From: Akkermansiaceae bacterium
GTDB taxonomy: Bacteria > Verrucomicrobiota > Verrucomicrobiia > Verrucomicrobiales > Akkermansiaceae
Reading direction: 5' to 3'
Assembly: GCA_029253285.1 (NCBI GenBank)
Contig: JAQWZU010000131.1
Location: 1-41,043, forward strand
Length of the DNA stretch: 41,043 nt
Below, piece after piece: positions 29,421 to 37,957 of the stretch. Below the pieces are notes generated by a model. The model did no database searches. It was not told where the DNA came from and worked only from the letters and a program-made list of their open reading frames with translations. A program made the translations under genes and the position numbers. Position 1 is the stretch's first letter. The number at the start of each line of letters is the position of its first letter.

Positions 29421-30119
29421 ATGAAAAATAAGAAACTTAGAATCCTCTCCGCCCTCTGCGTCGCGATCTTCGCACCAGGCCTGGCAAGCGGAGCTGCGAT
29501 CGCTGTAACTAACGCCAGCTTTGAAGACAACGTTCTGAGTGGCAACGCTTGGGCTGATGCCATTCCCAACGGCTGGTTTTCCCAAGGTAACGTTGCTGGA
29601 ACACCAGGTGCGCCAACTACGGATCCCAACTTCAACAACACCTTCCTTGAGTTGTCTTCAGCGATCGGAGCCAACGGTGGTGATGGGCCGAACAACCTCG
29701 GCATACGAACCGGCGGATTTATCTATCAGGACCTCGGGGTTCTTTTCCAGCCCAATACCACTTATACAGTCGACGTCATGGTCAATCGTCGCGGGGCTTC
29801 CGACAACGTTGGTTACTTTGGACTCGCTGACATCAACGGGGCTACTATGGGAACGGCTGGTGCTACTAACAGTTCCCAAATTGGAACATCTAACCAGTTC
29901 TTGGCAGTCTCGTCACTCGACCCCGCTGCTGGAAATGTTGCCACCTTCACTACCGGAGCAAACGTTCCTGCCGGAAATGTTATCCTCGCAGTCGGTGCCA
30001 CAACCGGCAACGTAGTCTATGACCTCATTTCGGTTGACGCTACTTCAGTGATTCCGGAGCCCTCCTCCATGGCCATGATCCTCTTGGCCGGATTGGGAAT
30101 CTTCCGCCGTCGGCGCTAG
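29421..30119 (+). CDS. PEP-CTERM surface protein
   Basis: 232 residues with a signal peptide (about 1-25, ending LASG). A beta-rich body follows, beginning AIAVTNASFEDNVLSGNAWADAIPNGW, similar to carbohydrate-binding-like modules. A C-terminal PEP-CTERM sorting signal at 211-232 has PEPSS, a short hydrophobic helix and RRRR. The family is processed by an exosortase and placed on the cell surface or in extracellular matrix. No exosortase gene is in the window. A palindrome lies upstream and an intrinsic terminator directly downstream, so it is monocistronic. Confidence 0.88.
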   Translation: MKNKKLRILSALCVAIFAPGLASGAAIAVTNASFEDNVLSGNAWADAIPNGWFSQGNVAGTPGAPTTDPNFNNTFLELSSAIGANGGDGPNNLGIRTGGFIYQDLGVLFQPNTTYTVDVMVNRRGASDNVGYFGLADINGATMGTAGATNSSQIGTSNQFLAVSSLDPAAGNVATFTTGANVPAGNVILAVGATTGNVVYDLISVDATSVIPEPSSMAMILLAGLGIFRRRR

Positions 30120-30226: not shown

Positions 30227-33200
30227 ATGAGTCTAACAAAAACGACAATCTTTTGGGTCCTCCGGACGCTCACCTACGCGCCCATCGCCATCCTCTCTTC
30301 CTGCGGCCCCGATGACCCTGAGCCCGTCGGCACCCAAACTCCCCCATCCACTCTGTTGGAAGGACAATCCTCCGACCTCAATATTGTTGCGGCCACCGAA
30401 AGCGACCCCCACCTGATGGATCTCGATCCTCTCAAAGACGGATGGGATAGCGAGCACCTCAGCTCTCTGGCTGGAGAACAACTCAACAAACTCGCCGAAG
30501 TCTTCGAATCCTCGGGCTTCTCCGACCAAAGCAAACTTCCAAAGATCTTCACCGACGAGGTCAACTGCAACTCTCTGCGCCCTTTAGATCTCAAGAACGT
30601 CCTTCCAGATAAGGACACCACCGTTCTCCGTCCTTCCTCTTTCCCAATCACGGCAGCCAAGGTTTCCTTGGCCGATTGCTTCTCTGCTCTCACCTCATCC
30701 GCACCAACTGACGGCGAACGCTATGCCAAATTTAAAATTATCGGTATCACCCCCATTGAACAAGGCTTCCAATCAACTCAGCTCGTTTCATTGAACATTC
30801 GCAACGGCACCTCCGCCTGGGAACAGAATGCCACCTGGAATATCGCCTGGAAAAACAATGGCTCCGAGTCACCTCTGATCAATTCTCTCAAGTTAGAGGA
30901 ATTTGAAGAGATTCACAGCGCGACCAAGGGGGTGTGGTTTTCCGACCAAACCGCCTCGGTGTTTTCCAAAGAAACTGAAATTTCCATCGCCACCGATCAG
31001 TTCGGAATCGGAGTTGGGGAGTGGACAGAACGACTCAACGATTACCTCCTCGTCAGGCAGTATGGTCACAACGGCCTTGCCCTCGGCGATGTCAATGGAG
31101 ACGGCTTTGAAGATCTTTACCGATGCCAGACCGGCGGACTGCCCAACCGTCTTTTTCTCGGCACGCCCGATGGAACCCTCCGCGACTACTCCAAAGAAGC
31201 GGGACTCGATTTTCTAGACAACTGCCTGGGTGCCCTCTTCATCGATCTGGACAACGACGAAGATCAAGACCTCGTCCTCGCCATGCCTCTTCAGGTTGTT
31301 TTCTTCAAAAATGATGGCTCGGGGAAATTCGAAATCGCCACCCAAATTGATCAACAAAATGTCTATTCATTGGCCGCTGCTGATTTCGATCATGATGGCG
31401 ACCTCGACGTCTACACCTGTGTCTACTACGCCGACGAGGAAATCCGGGCCGAGCTTCCCATTCCGATGCCCATATACGATGCCAAAAACGGAGGGCAGAA
31501 CGCGCTGCTCGAAAATGATGGTAACTGGAAATTCACCAACATCACCAAAGCTGCGGGTCTTGCCGTAGACAACAGCCGCTTTTCCTTCGCGGCCATTTGG
31601 GAAGACTACAACAACGATGGAGATCTCGATCTTTATGTCGTCAATGACTTCGGTCACAACAACCTCTACCAAAACAAGGGCGGCCACTTCCAACACATCA
31701 CCGAACAATCGGGAACAAGAAACGGCACCTTTGGCATGTCCGCCTCATCGGCTGACTTCAATCACGACGGATGGATGGACCTCTACAAAGCCAGCATGTT
31801 TTCCTCGGCTGGAAATCGCGTGGTCACTCAAGAGCAATTCCTTCCCACGGCCGCTCCCGCCATTAAGAATGCCATGTTCCAGATGGCGCAGGGTAACACC
31901 CTCTTCACCAACACCGGGCAAGGCTCATTCCGCGACGATGGCATCGCAGCCGGAGTCTCCATGGGACGATGGAGCTGGGGATCCATCTTCATGGACTTCA
32001 ACAACGATAGCTGGGAAGACCTCTTCGTCACCAACGGATTCGTCACCGGTCGAAACCCGAATGATTTGTGAACGATCTACTGGCGACAGGTCTTGTCCCA
32101 AATCCCCACCGAGGAAACCAAAATCCCTGACATGGCGAGCCCCGAATCATCCTACCGGAAACACTTAAATCGCCTCAATGAATTAGTCTCCAACGGAGAA
32201 TCGCTCAGTGGCCATGAACGAAACTGTGCTTTCCTCAATATTCAAGGTGGCCGCTTTGCCACGGTTTCCTCGGTAAGCGGACTTGATTTTGATGACGACG
32301 CTCGCTCGCCCGTGAGCATCGACTGGGATCGGGATGGCGATCTCGACCTTTGGGTCGCCAACCGAACGGCGCCGCAACTTCGCTTCCTCCGCAATAACAC
32401 TCCAAAGAAAAATGACTTTGTTTCCCTGAGACTCCGCGGAACGAAGTCGAACATCGACGGCATCGGAGCCCGCGTTGAAATTTCTCTTAAAAAAAATCAA
32501 GCAGGACCACCCTTAATAAAAACGCTCAAAGCAGGTGAAGGCTTTCTCGGACAATCATCCAAGTGGCTCCACTTCGGACTGGGCCACGAATCAACCCTTG
32601 ATCAAGTCATTGTGAAGTGGCCGGGCGGCGCTTCGGAAAAGTTCTCCTCCATCTCTCCAAACGGACATTTTCTTCTCAAGGAGGGAACAGGAAGCGCCCA
32701 AACCATCAAACGCGAGGTCATCTCCCTTCCCTACACCTCGAAACCCGCCCCCGTCTCACTCAATTCTAATTCGAGCCGCATTCTCACCCCCACCCGGACC
32801 GCCCTCCCTCCCCTTCGCTATACCGACCTTCAGGGAAAATCAAAAAAGATTAATCTTTCCCAGGGACACCCTATCTTGATCAACCTTTGGGCAAGTTGGT
32901 GCCCAGCCTGCCTTGAAGAACTCAACGATTGGAAAGCCCACCAAAATGACCTCAGCTCCACTGGTATCGAGGTCATTACCATTTCGACTGACCTCATTGA
33001 CGGAAGAGAGGACACCTCAGCTGACACCACCCGCTCCGCTCTCGACAAGCTCTCCCTCCCCTTCGCCGCCGGGATCGCCGACGAAGAGCTCTACAACCGC
33101 CTTCGACAAGCACACAACTGGCCATTCCTACGCCGCATTCCCATGCCGGTGCCAACCAGTTTTCTGGTCGATGGGCAAGGACGCCTCACCGCCATCTACC

Positions 33201-33841
33201 GGGGCACCATTTCCGCCAATCAAATCATCGCCGACACGAAATTATTTTCGCTCAATCACAATGATCTGCTAGCCGCCTCGCTACCATTCCCCGGCAGATG
33301 GATGTTCCCTCCCAGTCCTCCCGCCCCCATGCCTCATGGAATTGAACTCATGGAAAAAGGCGATGTCGTTGACGCCGCTGAGTTTGCCATTAGAAACCTC
33401 GAACTCCTCAAGCCGCACCGTGAATTTCCTCTCCTCGCCATCTGGATCAGTGAAAAACTTATGGCCGCCGGCGACACTGATCGGGGACTTCTTTTTCTCC
33501 GGTGGGCTGCGGAAAATGACAGTTCGAACATCGCTGTCGTCAATAACCTCGCGTGGCAACTCGCCACCAATCCGAGCGAACGCGTTCGCAATCCCCAACT
33601 CGCCCTTCAATGGGCTGAGAAGGCCAACACCATGACCGGAGGAAAACACCCCACAGTCCTCGATACCGTCGCCACGGCCAACGCCGCCGCCGGAAATTTT
33701 AATAAGTCAATTCAACTGATTGAACTTGGCATCCGGATCGCCACTACTCAAGGCGATGAAGCAACATCTGCTCCCATGAGAAAACGACTGGAACTTTTTA
33801 AGGCAGGAAAACCCTTCCTGGAAACTCCTCCCTCAAAATAA
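30227..33841 (+). CDS. predicted selenoprotein: CRTAC1-type FG-GAP/ASPIC lipoprotein fused to TlpA-like thioredoxin and TPR
   Basis: Read as one 1204-residue protein with Sec at 615, encoded by the in-frame TGA at 32069-32071. The signal ends in the lipobox LSSC (Cys about 26). Residues about 280-612 carry FG-GAP calcium-loop repeats (DVNGDGFEDLY, DFDHDGDLDVY, DYNNDGDLDLYV, DFNNDSWEDLFV). After NPNDL-U-TIYWRQV comes another repeat (DWDRDGDLDLWV), then an ASPIC/UnbV domain (GIGARVEI...LHFGLG). A TlpA-like domain has WCPAC (Cys892, Cys895), and the end is TPR-like. Neither half is sensible alone: the downstream half has only a TTG start and begins mid-repeat. A SECIS-like hairpin follows the TGA. 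The alternatives are a nonsense mutation or a sequencing error. Role inferred: exported redox or binding protein. Confidence 0.75.
32069..32071 (+). other. in-frame TGA, predicted selenocysteine codon
   Basis: The codon sits between ...GFVTGRNPNDL and TIYWRQVLSQIP in the same frame. Both sides are typical of one continuous CRTAC1-type protein. TGA is also used as a normal stop elsewhere in the window (for example after polX), so general reassignment of TGA is unlikely. Confidence 0.7.
32081..32100 (+). promoter_or_regulatory. candidate bacterial SECIS element
   Basis: A 20-nt stem-loop: TGG, bulged C84, GACA, loop GGTCT (32089-32093), TGTC, CCA, giving seven base pairs with one bulge. The loop begins 17 nt after the TGA. 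The bulged pyrimidine and the AGGTCT context copy the mini-helix that SelB binds in E. coli fdhF, where the bulge is U and the loop is AGGUCU at 18 nt to the GG. The apical loop starts with GG, as the bacterial SECIS model asks. Confidence 0.7.
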
Positions 33842-34585: not shown

Positions 34586-37500
34586 TCACTTTTTCTGATT
34601 CGAAAAAAGAAGTAGCGGCCTGCTATTGGGTGCCGCAAGAACATCCATCAACCCGTCGCCATTTGCATCAATTGTCAGTAGGCTTTTCGTATCATGATGC
34701 ATCAAAATCCCACTCGCTGGGTGTGGAATTACCTGAAAACCCTTGCCGTCCCACTCAAGATGGCAACCTGGATTTCCACGCCAGATTCCGGTCTCGATCC
34801 AGTTCGTTTCATGATTTTGAGCGAGGACCAGCTCCACTCTCCCATCTCCGTCAAAATCCCCTGACACCACCGCATTAACGGGAGATAACTGCGCATCCCA
34901 CGGTAGTCTTTGCCAAAGGAAATTCAACGACTCTCCCTTTCCTCCTTGATTGAGCCACACTCCCGACTCCAGGTGATTCGCCGTCACCTTGTAAGCTTTT
35001 GATAATCGTCCTCCATAGATCTCCGTGAGGCTCGCGGAAGCAAAGTCGTGATAGGTTCTAAACTGCTCGCTCACGGCGGGCATCGCTTGACACGTTCAGA
35101 AACGCCCCCTCACCGGCAGCGGTCGATCACTCTCCTTCTCCAGCTTGGCCTCGACAATATGTGATTCGCCACTCCCGTCTAGATCCCCATAATAAAGGAT
35201 GGCGGGATAAGCTTGAGTGGGACTCCCGTATTTCGTGTTCACCCCAGTATTCCCGGCTACCAGATCGAGGTCACCATCTTGATCCACATCAACAACCTTC
35301 ACTGACCGCCACCAGCCACGGCGTTCTCCAGTCCCGACACTTTTCGAGGACTCCACCAGTTCCCCGCTCTGATTCACATAAATCTGAATTACACCCCAAT
35401 CCGTTCCCACCACCAAATCCAGATCCCCATCTCGATCAAGATCCGCCCAACTTGCATCTGTAACCATTCCTTCAACCTTCAGGTCCTTTCCTGAAACGTC
35501 GGTAAACATCACCTTATCCTTCGTTGAGTCATTGCGAATCAGACGGCTCACCGGATTTAAAGGATACTGACCGGGAATTGACCGAGATCCGATAAACAGA
35601 TCCAAATCCCCATCCCCATCATAATCTGCGGAGGCCACACAACTCCCACTATCACGCAAATCAGGAAAACTGCCTTCCCCGGCTTCCGTCAACTTCACCT
35701 CCCCTTCCACAAGCTCATTTAGATAAAGTCGATCACGATAAAAAGCATGTCCCGCGCTCCGCTCCGTGCTCCCAGAAATCACAAGCAAATCGAGATCACC
35801 ATCTCCATCGGCATCGAAAATCTCTGCAGCTGCATCCTCCGAATATTTATGCCGTCCTCCAAAAGCCTTTTGCGGACTCCGCACAAAGGTCCCGTCTTGG
35901 TTGAGAAATAACGAACCCTCTCTGCCCTTCGCGCCACCGACAAAGAAATCCTCGTCCCCATCTCCATCAAGATCACCCTTTGCCAAACAAGGACCCAACT
36001 GCGACAGCTTTTGAGGCAACAGTGGCTGAGCCTTGAAGTCATCATACTCGTCCTCTTCAAAGCGATAGCTTGGAACCTTCACTGACTCGAATCGCGGCAA
36101 CACACCCTCCCCGCTCGGAGCCGTCCCTCCGGCTTCCTCGGTCACCTTAATTAAGCCACGATTCCTTCCCTCCAGAGAAACTGCCTGATAGTTTCCCGAG
36201 GGCCAAAATATCTCTAATTTTGACGCGGTGGCCTGACCCAGCCCAAAGTGAAGTGCAGCATCATTTTGTGATTGAAACCCCGTCCAAGGATTCATCCAAC
36301 GAGTGTGCCGAATCCCGCTGCTGTCCGTCAGAATCACCTTGGCTCCAATCCCCATAATATTACTTGTTCTGCCTCTCAGCTGAACGCTTACCCCACTTCC
36401 CTTCCCTCCTTGATTTCTATAAATCTTCGTTCTTTTCCCCAGATCTGAAACCACCAAGTCGAGATTTCCGTCCCGGTCCAAATCACCCATTGCGGCTGAA
36501 TAACTCATCCCAAGCAGCCCCAACCCCCAGTCCAGTCGCTTCTGAAACTTCTTCCCGTCGAGATTCTGAAAAACCAAATTTTCCTCAGGATTCTCGGGAG
36601 CGTCTTTTTCAATCTCCCACATCGTTCGCCCTATCCGGGCGTTGCCGAGATCTCCCCCCCCTTTATTCCGATCTGCGTTCATGAAATCCCGCGAGATTCC
36701 ATTTGAAAGAAAAACATCTTGATAGCCATCGTTGTCAAGATCGCCAAATTTCACGACCCAACTCCACTCGCTGCTCCCCACTCCGGCGGCCTGTGCCACC
36801 TCCTGAAAATAACCGCTCCCTGTATTCACCTGGAGATGATTTCTCATATACTGCCGGGGAATCGACTGCATCAAAATGTGCCGACGGGAGGGAGTCAAGG
36901 CTCCCATTTTGACTTTCGATTTGTAGTGAGAATTCGAAGCCATTTCCACGGACATGAGATCAGGCAAGCCGTCCCGATTGTAGTCCGCAACATCGCTTCC
37001 CATCGAAGACCAGCTCGTATGCGGAAACACCTCGGCAATGACATTCTCGAAACGTGGCACACCGCTTTTTGTGACCCCGTCGTTCCGAAACAAGCGATCG
37101 GGTGTGTCAAAATCATTCGCGACATACAGATCCAAGTCGCCATCACTATCGTAGTCCCACCACACCGCTGAAAGCCCCCAACCCTCCATTTGCAGGCCGG
37201 ATCCCTCACTCACATCCTTAAAATTCAACACTCCATCTTTGCTCTCGTTTAAGAAAAAGTAATCTTTCCGCCCATACTCAACGAGCTTGTTCCGTCCCTC
37301 AAAATCCATCTGAAGTTTGTAATGCTTGCGATAGTTCGCTTTCACCTCCGGACCGAGACCACGATCAATCACCGGCATTTCAGCGGGCCGACCTTTTGGA
37401 GCGATCAATTCATTGCAAAGTAGGAATAAATCCAAATCACCATCGCAATCAACATCAGCAAAGAATGGCTGAAGTGAGGCATCCTGAACACCAAGTCCCG

Positions 37501-37957
37501 CGGCCCCTTTCAACTCCACAAAGCTCCCCTTGCCATCGTTTAGAAACAGTTGGTTCGGCGCATCGTAGTGACACTGGTAAAGATCAAGATCTCCATCCGC
37601 ATCAAGATCGACCAAGGCCGCACCGGTTCCCCATTGATCATTTCCCTGAAGAGAAACAGGCAAGGTCGTCCGCGAAAATTTCATCTGCCCTTGGTTCAAC
37701 CACAGCGCATTTTCCCCGACCGCACCGGCCTGATAGATATCTAACAAATCGTCCCCATTGACATCGGCAAGACAGATGCCTCCCACTGCCATCCCCGAAT
37801 AATACAAATAAGCTTTTTCGTGATCCTCGATCAACTCATGGGTGAAATCCACTCCGGCATCCCGGGCGCATTCCAGAAACAGCTTCTCTGATTCTTTCTG
37901 CCCAAAAACAGAACTCGTCCCAAGGGCCCAGAGGAGATACTTCACACCACGTTTCAC
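34586..37957 (-). CDS. predicted selenoprotein: large CRTAC1-type FG-GAP/ASPIC-UnbV protein
   Basis: Read as one 1123-residue protein with Sec954 at the in-frame TGA (35096-35098). It starts at GTG 37957 (a GTG four codons on is possible) with a signal peptide ending SVFGQ. FG-GAP/VCBS repeats fill the body (DVNGDDLLDIYQ, DLDADGDLDLYQ, DYDSDGDLDLYV, DGDGDEDFFVG, DYDGDGDLDLFIG). An ASPIC/UnbV domain lies at about 510-600 (GIGAKVIL...LHFGLG). After PVRGRF-U-TCQAMP the frame continues with FRTYHDFASASLTEIYGG and another repeat (DFDGDGRVELVLAQN). In homologues that I recall, this junction reads RGR-x-C-SSQ-x-MP without a break, so Sec replaces a conserved Cys. A SECIS-like hairpin follows. The function is unknown; members are exported and often accompany polymer uptake. 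Confidence 0.8.
35064..35082 (-). promoter_or_regulatory. candidate bacterial SECIS element
   Basis: Minus-strand stem-loop TGC-C-CGC, loop CGTGA, GCG-A-GCA: two 3-bp helices flanking one C x A mismatch. The loop begins 20 nt after the TGA and has G as its second base, within the distance and loop rules I know for bacterial SECIS elements. It is a weaker match to fdhF than the other one. Confidence 0.5.
35096..35098 (-). other. in-frame TGA, predicted selenocysteine codon
   Basis: The context is PVRGRF-TGA-TCQAMP, with the same frame open for 953 codons before and 169 after. The position aligns with the Cys of the RGR-x-C-SSQ motif remembered from related FG-GAP proteins. A Cys two residues later makes a U-x-C pair. 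Confidence 0.75.

Follow-up and report, generated by a model that had tools for sequence, protein, structure and literature searches.

The window, by which we mean the whole stretch of 41,043 nucleotides that was analyzed, carries a long fusion gene, here termed Sec-CRTAC1, and, on the opposite strand, a second CRTAC1-like gene (Table 1). The first-pass annotation had described one TGA that splits an otherwise continuous frame, with FG-GAP sequence before it and FG-GAP/ASPIC sequence after it, and this description held: the TGA at codon 615 is the sole internal stop of the Sec-CRTAC1 frame, FG-GAP repeats precede it, and a UnbV_ASPIC domain (residues 745–812) follows it. Both Pfam matches score above cut-off (FG-GAP_3, 129.2 bits; UnbV_ASPIC, 54.5 bits). 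Further downstream, Pfam AhpC-TSA/Redoxin matches residues 860–995, within a thioredoxin-like domain spanning approximately residues 858–1003. A thioredoxin fold with a CxxC motif is thus present in the protein; that it has thiol activity is inferred, without an assay. Every NCBIfam model matched by this domain falls below its curated cut-off, and a match to NF041054 (residues 850–928) is weak. For the helical tail, Pfam returned no TPR match at E 0.01 in the window protein. Judging from the sequence alone, by its lipobox, the protein is likely to be exported as a lipoprotein.

Table 1. Features of the Sec-CRTAC1 gene and of the neighboring CRTAC1-like gene (positions in the window)
Feature	Position	Strand	Details and basis
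Sec-CRTAC1 gene	30227..33841	+	1204 aa with U615 (very likely); propeller/TlpA-like thioredoxin/TPR-like fusion
N-terminal signal with lipobox LSSC (Cys26)	30227..30304	+	By eye and by pattern, no predictor
Lys170	30734..30736	+	Alignment of Sec rows against Sec-replaced rows
Beta-propeller and ASPIC domain, CRTAC1 fold	30914..32689	+	Structural alignment, Foldseek
In-frame TGA, very likely Sec615	32069..32071	+	Start of a predicted helix (model residues 590–600)
SECIS hairpin	32081..32100	+	Stem 32081–32088/32094–32100; bulged C 32084; loop GGTCT 32089–32093
TlpA/ResA-like thioredoxin domain	32798..33235	+	CPAC: Cys892 (32900–32902), Cys895 (32909–32911)
TPR-like helical tail	33329..33802	+	Helices in the AlphaFold model; TPR proteins match the same part of the A3 profile
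Second CRTAC1-like FG-GAP/ASPIC gene	34586..37957	-	In-frame TGA 35096–35098, codon 954; 169 codons after it

An AlphaFold2 model of residues 26–1204, computed from an alignment of 40 sequences (pLDDT 88.3, pTM 0.87), predicts that Sec begins a helix. Murine CRTAC1 was ranked first by Foldseek, followed by a group of ResA/TlpA structures matching the C-terminal domain, and VIA-align superimposed model residues 205–796 on murine CRTAC1 (9etn) with a Z of 40.0 over 454 residues at 2.2 Å. Six CRTAC1 stretches were matched by profile; the Sec segment lies outside all of them.

The TGA is followed by the hairpin with a bulged C and loop GGTCT that the first-pass annotation had reported. The hairpin itself was confirmed and its distance corrected: the 17 nt given as the spacing from the TGA is the distance to the apical loop, while the stem starts 9 nt past the TGA. 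For the window's copy of this hairpin, stability does not exceed that of shuffles (z of 0.12, 0.03 and 0.90 for three cuts); the window alone therefore proves little, and it is conservation across the family that carries the case.

To score the family, we used published SECIS criteria (PMC13188914), namely a loop of 3–9 nt, a stem of at least 4 bp, a G at loop position 1 or 2, a location 16–37 nt from the UGA and an MFE of -7.5 or lower, with geometry scored by script and single-base bulges allowed. The geometry was met by 71 of 82 TGA rows, as against 21.1 expected after synonymous shuffling, and missed in the minimum-energy fold by the other 11; mean energy was -11.9 kcal/mol, compared with -9.7 kcal/mol for the shuffled rows, and the MFE was -7.5 or lower in 78 of the 82. 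These rows are mutually related, near-copies included. The window gene meets both geometry and energy, at -7.9; when the 45 nt folded include the TGA, the value is -6.9.

Comparing the same-codon rate with its expectation in 65 non-redundant genes of the main family, we determined that synonymous constraint clusters at codons -1, +1 and +5 to +9 relative to the TGA, the rate being near expected at most upstream positions. Adjacent to the TGA, Leu-1 is TTG in 56 of 65 genes and Ser+1 is AGT in 54 of 62; within the hairpin, Gln+6 is CAG (54/57), Val+7 GTC (56/64), Val+8 GTG (55/55) and Ser+9 TCG (52/55). Skew is moderate at Arg+5 and hardly detectable at Phe+2 and Phe+3, and the invariant Asp-2 divides its codons between GAC (35) and GAT (30). 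Some skew also occurs outside the hairpin, as at Ala-13 (0.54, 0.29 expected). Across 60 distinct sequences, six pairs of the stem are complementary in 98% of cells, against 16–50% for slid partners. Furthermore, two stem pairs show compensatory changes, one from A-U to G-C in 6 of the 60 sequences, with amino acids differing on both sides, and another from C-G to A-U in 2 of the 60.

The TGA column was then read in relatives. Within the genome that contains the window, 8 of 91 candidates were scored and all eight matches carry TGA at the Sec column. A scan of named genomes yielded 345 confirmed loci, of which the best 80, mostly from Verrucomicrobiota, Planctomycetota and Acidobacteriota, were taken; 70 of these could be read at the column, yielding 73 rows, of which 71 are TGA; the other two are an Ala codon and a Ser codon, the latter in a weak second region. 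No codon was obtained from the remaining 10, among them L090, which is cut by a contig end. The titles of the TGA loci name Verrucomicrobiales, Akkermansiaceae, Roseibacillus, Planctomycetaceae, Pirellulales, Isosphaeraceae, Terriglobia, Chloracidobacterium and one Dehalococcoidia. Drawing on Planctomycetota, with no more than eight candidates scored per genome, we found the family in 108 of 392 genomes at E 1e-15 or better; of 150 of these matches, counted by hand, 127 hold TGA and 23 do not. The phylum of Chloracidobacterium has the family in 97 of 396 genomes, and TGA in 55 of the 81 best matches (E 4.9e-41 or better, also a hand count). For the phylum of the window, a narrower profile was used at a threshold of 1e-20; it matched 4 of 387 genomes, and the TGA is present in two of these four. 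Where loci had been returned or chosen with a TGA, the column was read as TGA in 31 of 31 and in 15 of 15. A set of 167 rows, 165 of them different, comprises 122 Sec, 9 Cys and 36 other residues.

Cys at the Sec column is confined to one clade (8 rows in one set, 9 in the set of 167), and Sec and Cys forms share the motif D-x-[UC]-x-x-x-W. By comparison, the open frame across the TGA, the TGA codon and the downstream hairpin are all conserved in genomes of at least three phyla, as judged by record titles. The first-pass annotation had proposed looking for TGA or Cys at this column, and both are found there; it had also stated that resequencing to a sense codon would refute the reading, and a sequencing error is untenable, as the TGA recurs in 122 of 167 rows from many assemblies.

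Two further observations concern members of other shapes. A planctomycete member, L178 (G432:C78), has three TGA codons in the matched stretch, one of them at the Sec column. Shorter Sec subfamilies (L014, L015, L124 and the named loci L091–L097) are mostly without the thioredoxin, have a shifted hairpin and show motifs such as PDGUSCLW and DLUSCFW, several with a Cys two residues after the Sec.

The alternative that the TGA terminates translation would leave a 614-residue protein, the remainder being either a separate gene with a start of its own downstream or a decaying remnant. In its favor, the standard code reads TGA as a stop, and within 330 nt of it there are in-frame starts at TTG 32093 (within the hairpin), ATG 32132 and GTG 32312. 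No credible start had been recognized there in the first-pass annotation; by eye, none of the three is preceded by an obvious Shine-Dalgarno sequence, but none is obvious upstream of the gene's own ATG either. Against termination, the thioredoxin-like domain is in frame after the TGA in 108 of 122 Sec rows (the other 14 being short members or rows in which the domain was not aligned at the locus); the frame runs on without interruption in relatives whose column holds Cys or some other residue; the codons of the hairpin are nearly fixed; and in a near-identical genome pair the ratio of synonymous to other substitutions is 66:25 after the TGA and 53:33 before it. We regard termination as very unlikely.

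The source genome (4.31 Mb in 224 contigs, 96.7% complete) encodes all four components of the selenocysteine machinery that the first-pass annotation had suggested searching for: selA (490.6 bits), selB (274.6 bits), selD (373.5 bits) and selC, a tRNA-Sec with a TCA anticodon that scores 54 bits and is also called by ARAGORN. The selD gene of this genome (contig C135:17623-18552) has an in-frame TGA and probably encodes a selenoprotein itself. Among 24 genomes with TGA genes, 20 have a clear tRNA-Sec (at least 54 bits) and one more scores 49.4; in 4 of the 24, tRNA-Sec is not clear. It was also found in two of five genomes in which no TGA member was seen. SelB is present in 15 of 16 Planctomycetota genomes with TGA genes, compared with 10 of 18 without the family, and since SelB is this frequent where the family is missing, co-occurrence alone is modest evidence. 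Possibly, the missing tRNA-Sec (4 of 24) and SelB (1 of 16) reflect incomplete bins. G289, a genome with the Cys form, yielded neither a SelB above the cut-off nor a clear tRNA-Sec. Three planctomycete genomes with Cys genes were compared for SelB, which is absent from two and present in the third. SelB is present in G649, G738 and G749, in all three of which Asp or Glu members were read.

A reassigned or leaky code, in which UGA would be read as Trp or by a near-cognate tRNA without any selenium, must also be considered; UGA does specify Trp or Gly in some bacteria. However, many genes of the family themselves end at TGA, the rows read show Cys but no Trp at the column, and tRNA-Sec and SelB are present. 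This alternative is all but excluded. We conclude that UGA 615 is very likely decoded as selenocysteine in an exported protein, as the first-pass annotation had inferred; the machinery, the TGA/Cys column and the family-wide conservation of the hairpin support this, each refuting condition of that annotation that was open to computation was decided in favor of Sec, and there are no peptide, 75Se or activity data.

In the mechanism that we propose, SelB-GTP carrying Sec-tRNA would bind the apical loop 17 nt downstream and insert Sec615, following established SelB biology, and the protein would be exported as a lipoprotein, as inferred from its lipobox. Sec615, at the start of a helix outside the stretches matched to CRTAC1, would be the reactive residue, redox activity being inferred; a substrate would oxidize it, and the CxxC of the fused TlpA/ResA-like domain would reduce it again, such that a single chain would carry both a selenol site and its own reductase. 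Reduction of a periplasmic hydroperoxide or another oxidant is the leading candidate for the reaction class, but a guess only, as neither reaction nor substrate has been shown.

The support for a link between Sec and the thioredoxin comes from relatives in which Sec is replaced by Asp, Glu, Gln, Ala, Gly, Ser, Asn or Arg. The Trp at +4 is retained in these relatives, and the thioredoxin-like domain in most of them. Among rows that have the domain, a complete CxxC is found in 104 of 108 Sec rows versus 2 of 31 replaced rows (100 of 103 versus 2 of 31 with near-copies removed). The four exceptional Sec rows, representing three genes, comprise two with one Cys and two with none; the 29 replaced rows without a complete motif comprise 8 with one Cys and 21 with none. 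Similarly, Lys occupies position 170 in 108 of the 111 Sec rows aligned there versus 1 of 30 replaced rows, one of which is a gap (103 of 106 versus 1 of 30 with near-copies removed). On the tree, only five Sec changes are needed among the rows compared, and a sign test of Sec against CxxC found three independent pairs on supported branches (median p 0.5), with which significance is unreachable, and two pairs (p 1) in another comparison.

What is new here is that loss of the CxxC in the fused thioredoxin usually accompanies replacement of Sec, an association that rests on few independent events. It suggests that the thioredoxin serves Sec, an interpretation toward which the evidence tilts without settling it. 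The first-pass annotation had pointed out that the Sec protein also carries a CPAC thioredoxin site, and the link between the two gains support from the absence of the CxxC in most relatives without Sec. Cys300 was considered as a partner of Sec and rejected: nearly invariant in a first alignment, it showed no clear coupling, being present in 72 of 94 aligned Sec rows and in 5 of 17 replaced rows, and most further replaced rows keep it.

In the remaining alternative, the protein is a selenoprotein, but its Sec uses a thiol or a periplasmic thioredoxin outside the chain, or else binds a metal; the fused thioredoxin would then have an unconnected role. Four Sec rows without a full CxxC favor this, as do the short Sec members without a thioredoxin, three of which are in the source genome. 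Among the shorter Sec members, the domain is missing from 11 of 12 rows, a count that includes two duplicates; the fusion is therefore not essential, and those members need another reductant. Against it stands the contrast between Sec rows and replaced rows in the completeness of the CxxC, itself drawn from few independent branches. On balance, we consider the external partner the weaker of the two explanations, and give a moderate preference to the intramolecular relay between Sec and CxxC, which is partly supported and for which the reach from Sec to the CxxC is unmeasured.

The second CRTAC1-like gene also has an in-frame TGA (Table 1). In 29 other relatives the corresponding column holds Cys in 27, Tyr in one and Thr in one; the TGA recurs in the near-identical locus L029, and no other TGA was seen among a subset of the matches in 39 searched genomes. 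Between the near-identical pair there are 7 synonymous and 4 other substitutions after the TGA, and 13 and 2 before it. The hairpin downstream of this TGA is weak and differs between the pair, such that there is no clear SECIS, and no NCBIfam model was found for the gene. It may represent a recent change from Cys to Sec, and hence a second selenoprotein, or a broken gene; both remain possibilities only.

Directly upstream of Sec-CRTAC1 lies an HpiC1-like gene (29421–30119, forward strand). Comparison of the flanks of up to 75 sources by single linkage gave neighbor groups of 18, 8, 5 and 4 loci: the group of 18 contains the neighboring FG-GAP gene, and the group of 8, which includes the window and L029, the HpiC1-like gene.

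We found this family, which is widespread, in no published selenoprotein list within the literature searched. A 2026 catalogue of 119 selenoprotein families and subfamilies (PMC13188914) has no CRTAC1, ASPIC or FG-GAP row in its Table 1, although those of its rows that lack an NCBIfam or Pfam identifier were not each compared by sequence. NCBIfam selenoprotein models gave no match to the Sec region, nor did the NCBIfam models listed for GOS_B and GOS_C (PMC2398784) match the window protein. No such family is named in passages of the GOS, deep-Sep and Sargasso papers or in a 2022 review (PMC9312934). Selenoprotein candidates are given in the S9 table of the Porphyra planctomycete paper (PMC4807772), and a paper describing CRTAC1 genes beside hydrazine-synthase-like genes (PMC12758564) does not contain the word selenocysteine. 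Our search of the open-access literature, preprints being outside its scope, turned up no paper on a selenoprotein or selenocysteine with ASPIC, FG-GAP, VCBS or bacterial CRTAC1, which agrees with the first-pass annotation, to which no selenoprotein of this architecture was known.

Annotation that takes the TGA as a stop would truncate these genes, dropping the thioredoxin and the TPR-like parts. If our reading is correct, selenium is often required by a family that occurs in approximately one in four sampled genomes of each of two phyla (108/392 and 97/396, non-Sec forms included), and the known selenoproteins are joined by one whose Sec lies in a propeller and not in any thioredoxin fold. 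The literature searched gave no enzymatic role for the CRTAC1/ASPIC family, which would then acquire a chemistry open to testing, namely a redox site that comes with its own reductase. A bolder reading is that these proteins form a large, undescribed class of exported selenoenzymes, combining a selenol site on a CRTAC1-type propeller with a reductase in the same chain, with eight or more TGA-containing copies in a single genome and with members in Verrucomicrobiota, Planctomycetota and Acidobacteriota, where it is perhaps a main use of selenium; taken as a whole, this reading seems to us as likely to fail as to stand.

Among known systems, mouse CRTAC1 (PDB 9etn) shares the propeller fold and the UnbV_ASPIC domain with the bacterial protein, which has, in addition, the Sec, the thioredoxin and the TPR-like tail. 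With E. coli FdhF it has in common the UGA, a hairpin close downstream and a small loop starting with G, in FdhF a SelB-dependent SECIS; selA, selB, selC and selD are present, as for SelB-dependent selenoproteins such as FdhF. The loop GGUCU is the same as that of fdhF. However, the window protein is not a molybdopterin enzyme, and its Sec is in a beta-propeller protein rather than in a thioredoxin fold. The TlpA/ResA/DsbE proteins share the thioredoxin-like domain with CPAC, which in the window protein is C-terminal and fused to the propeller. A domain of the TlpA/ResA type is also shared by the UGC-containing TlpA family (PMC13188914, Table 1) and by NCBIfam WAxxUGC; in these, judged by their names, Sec lies within the thioredoxin motif, whereas in the window protein that motif is CPAC and Sec precedes it by 277 residues.
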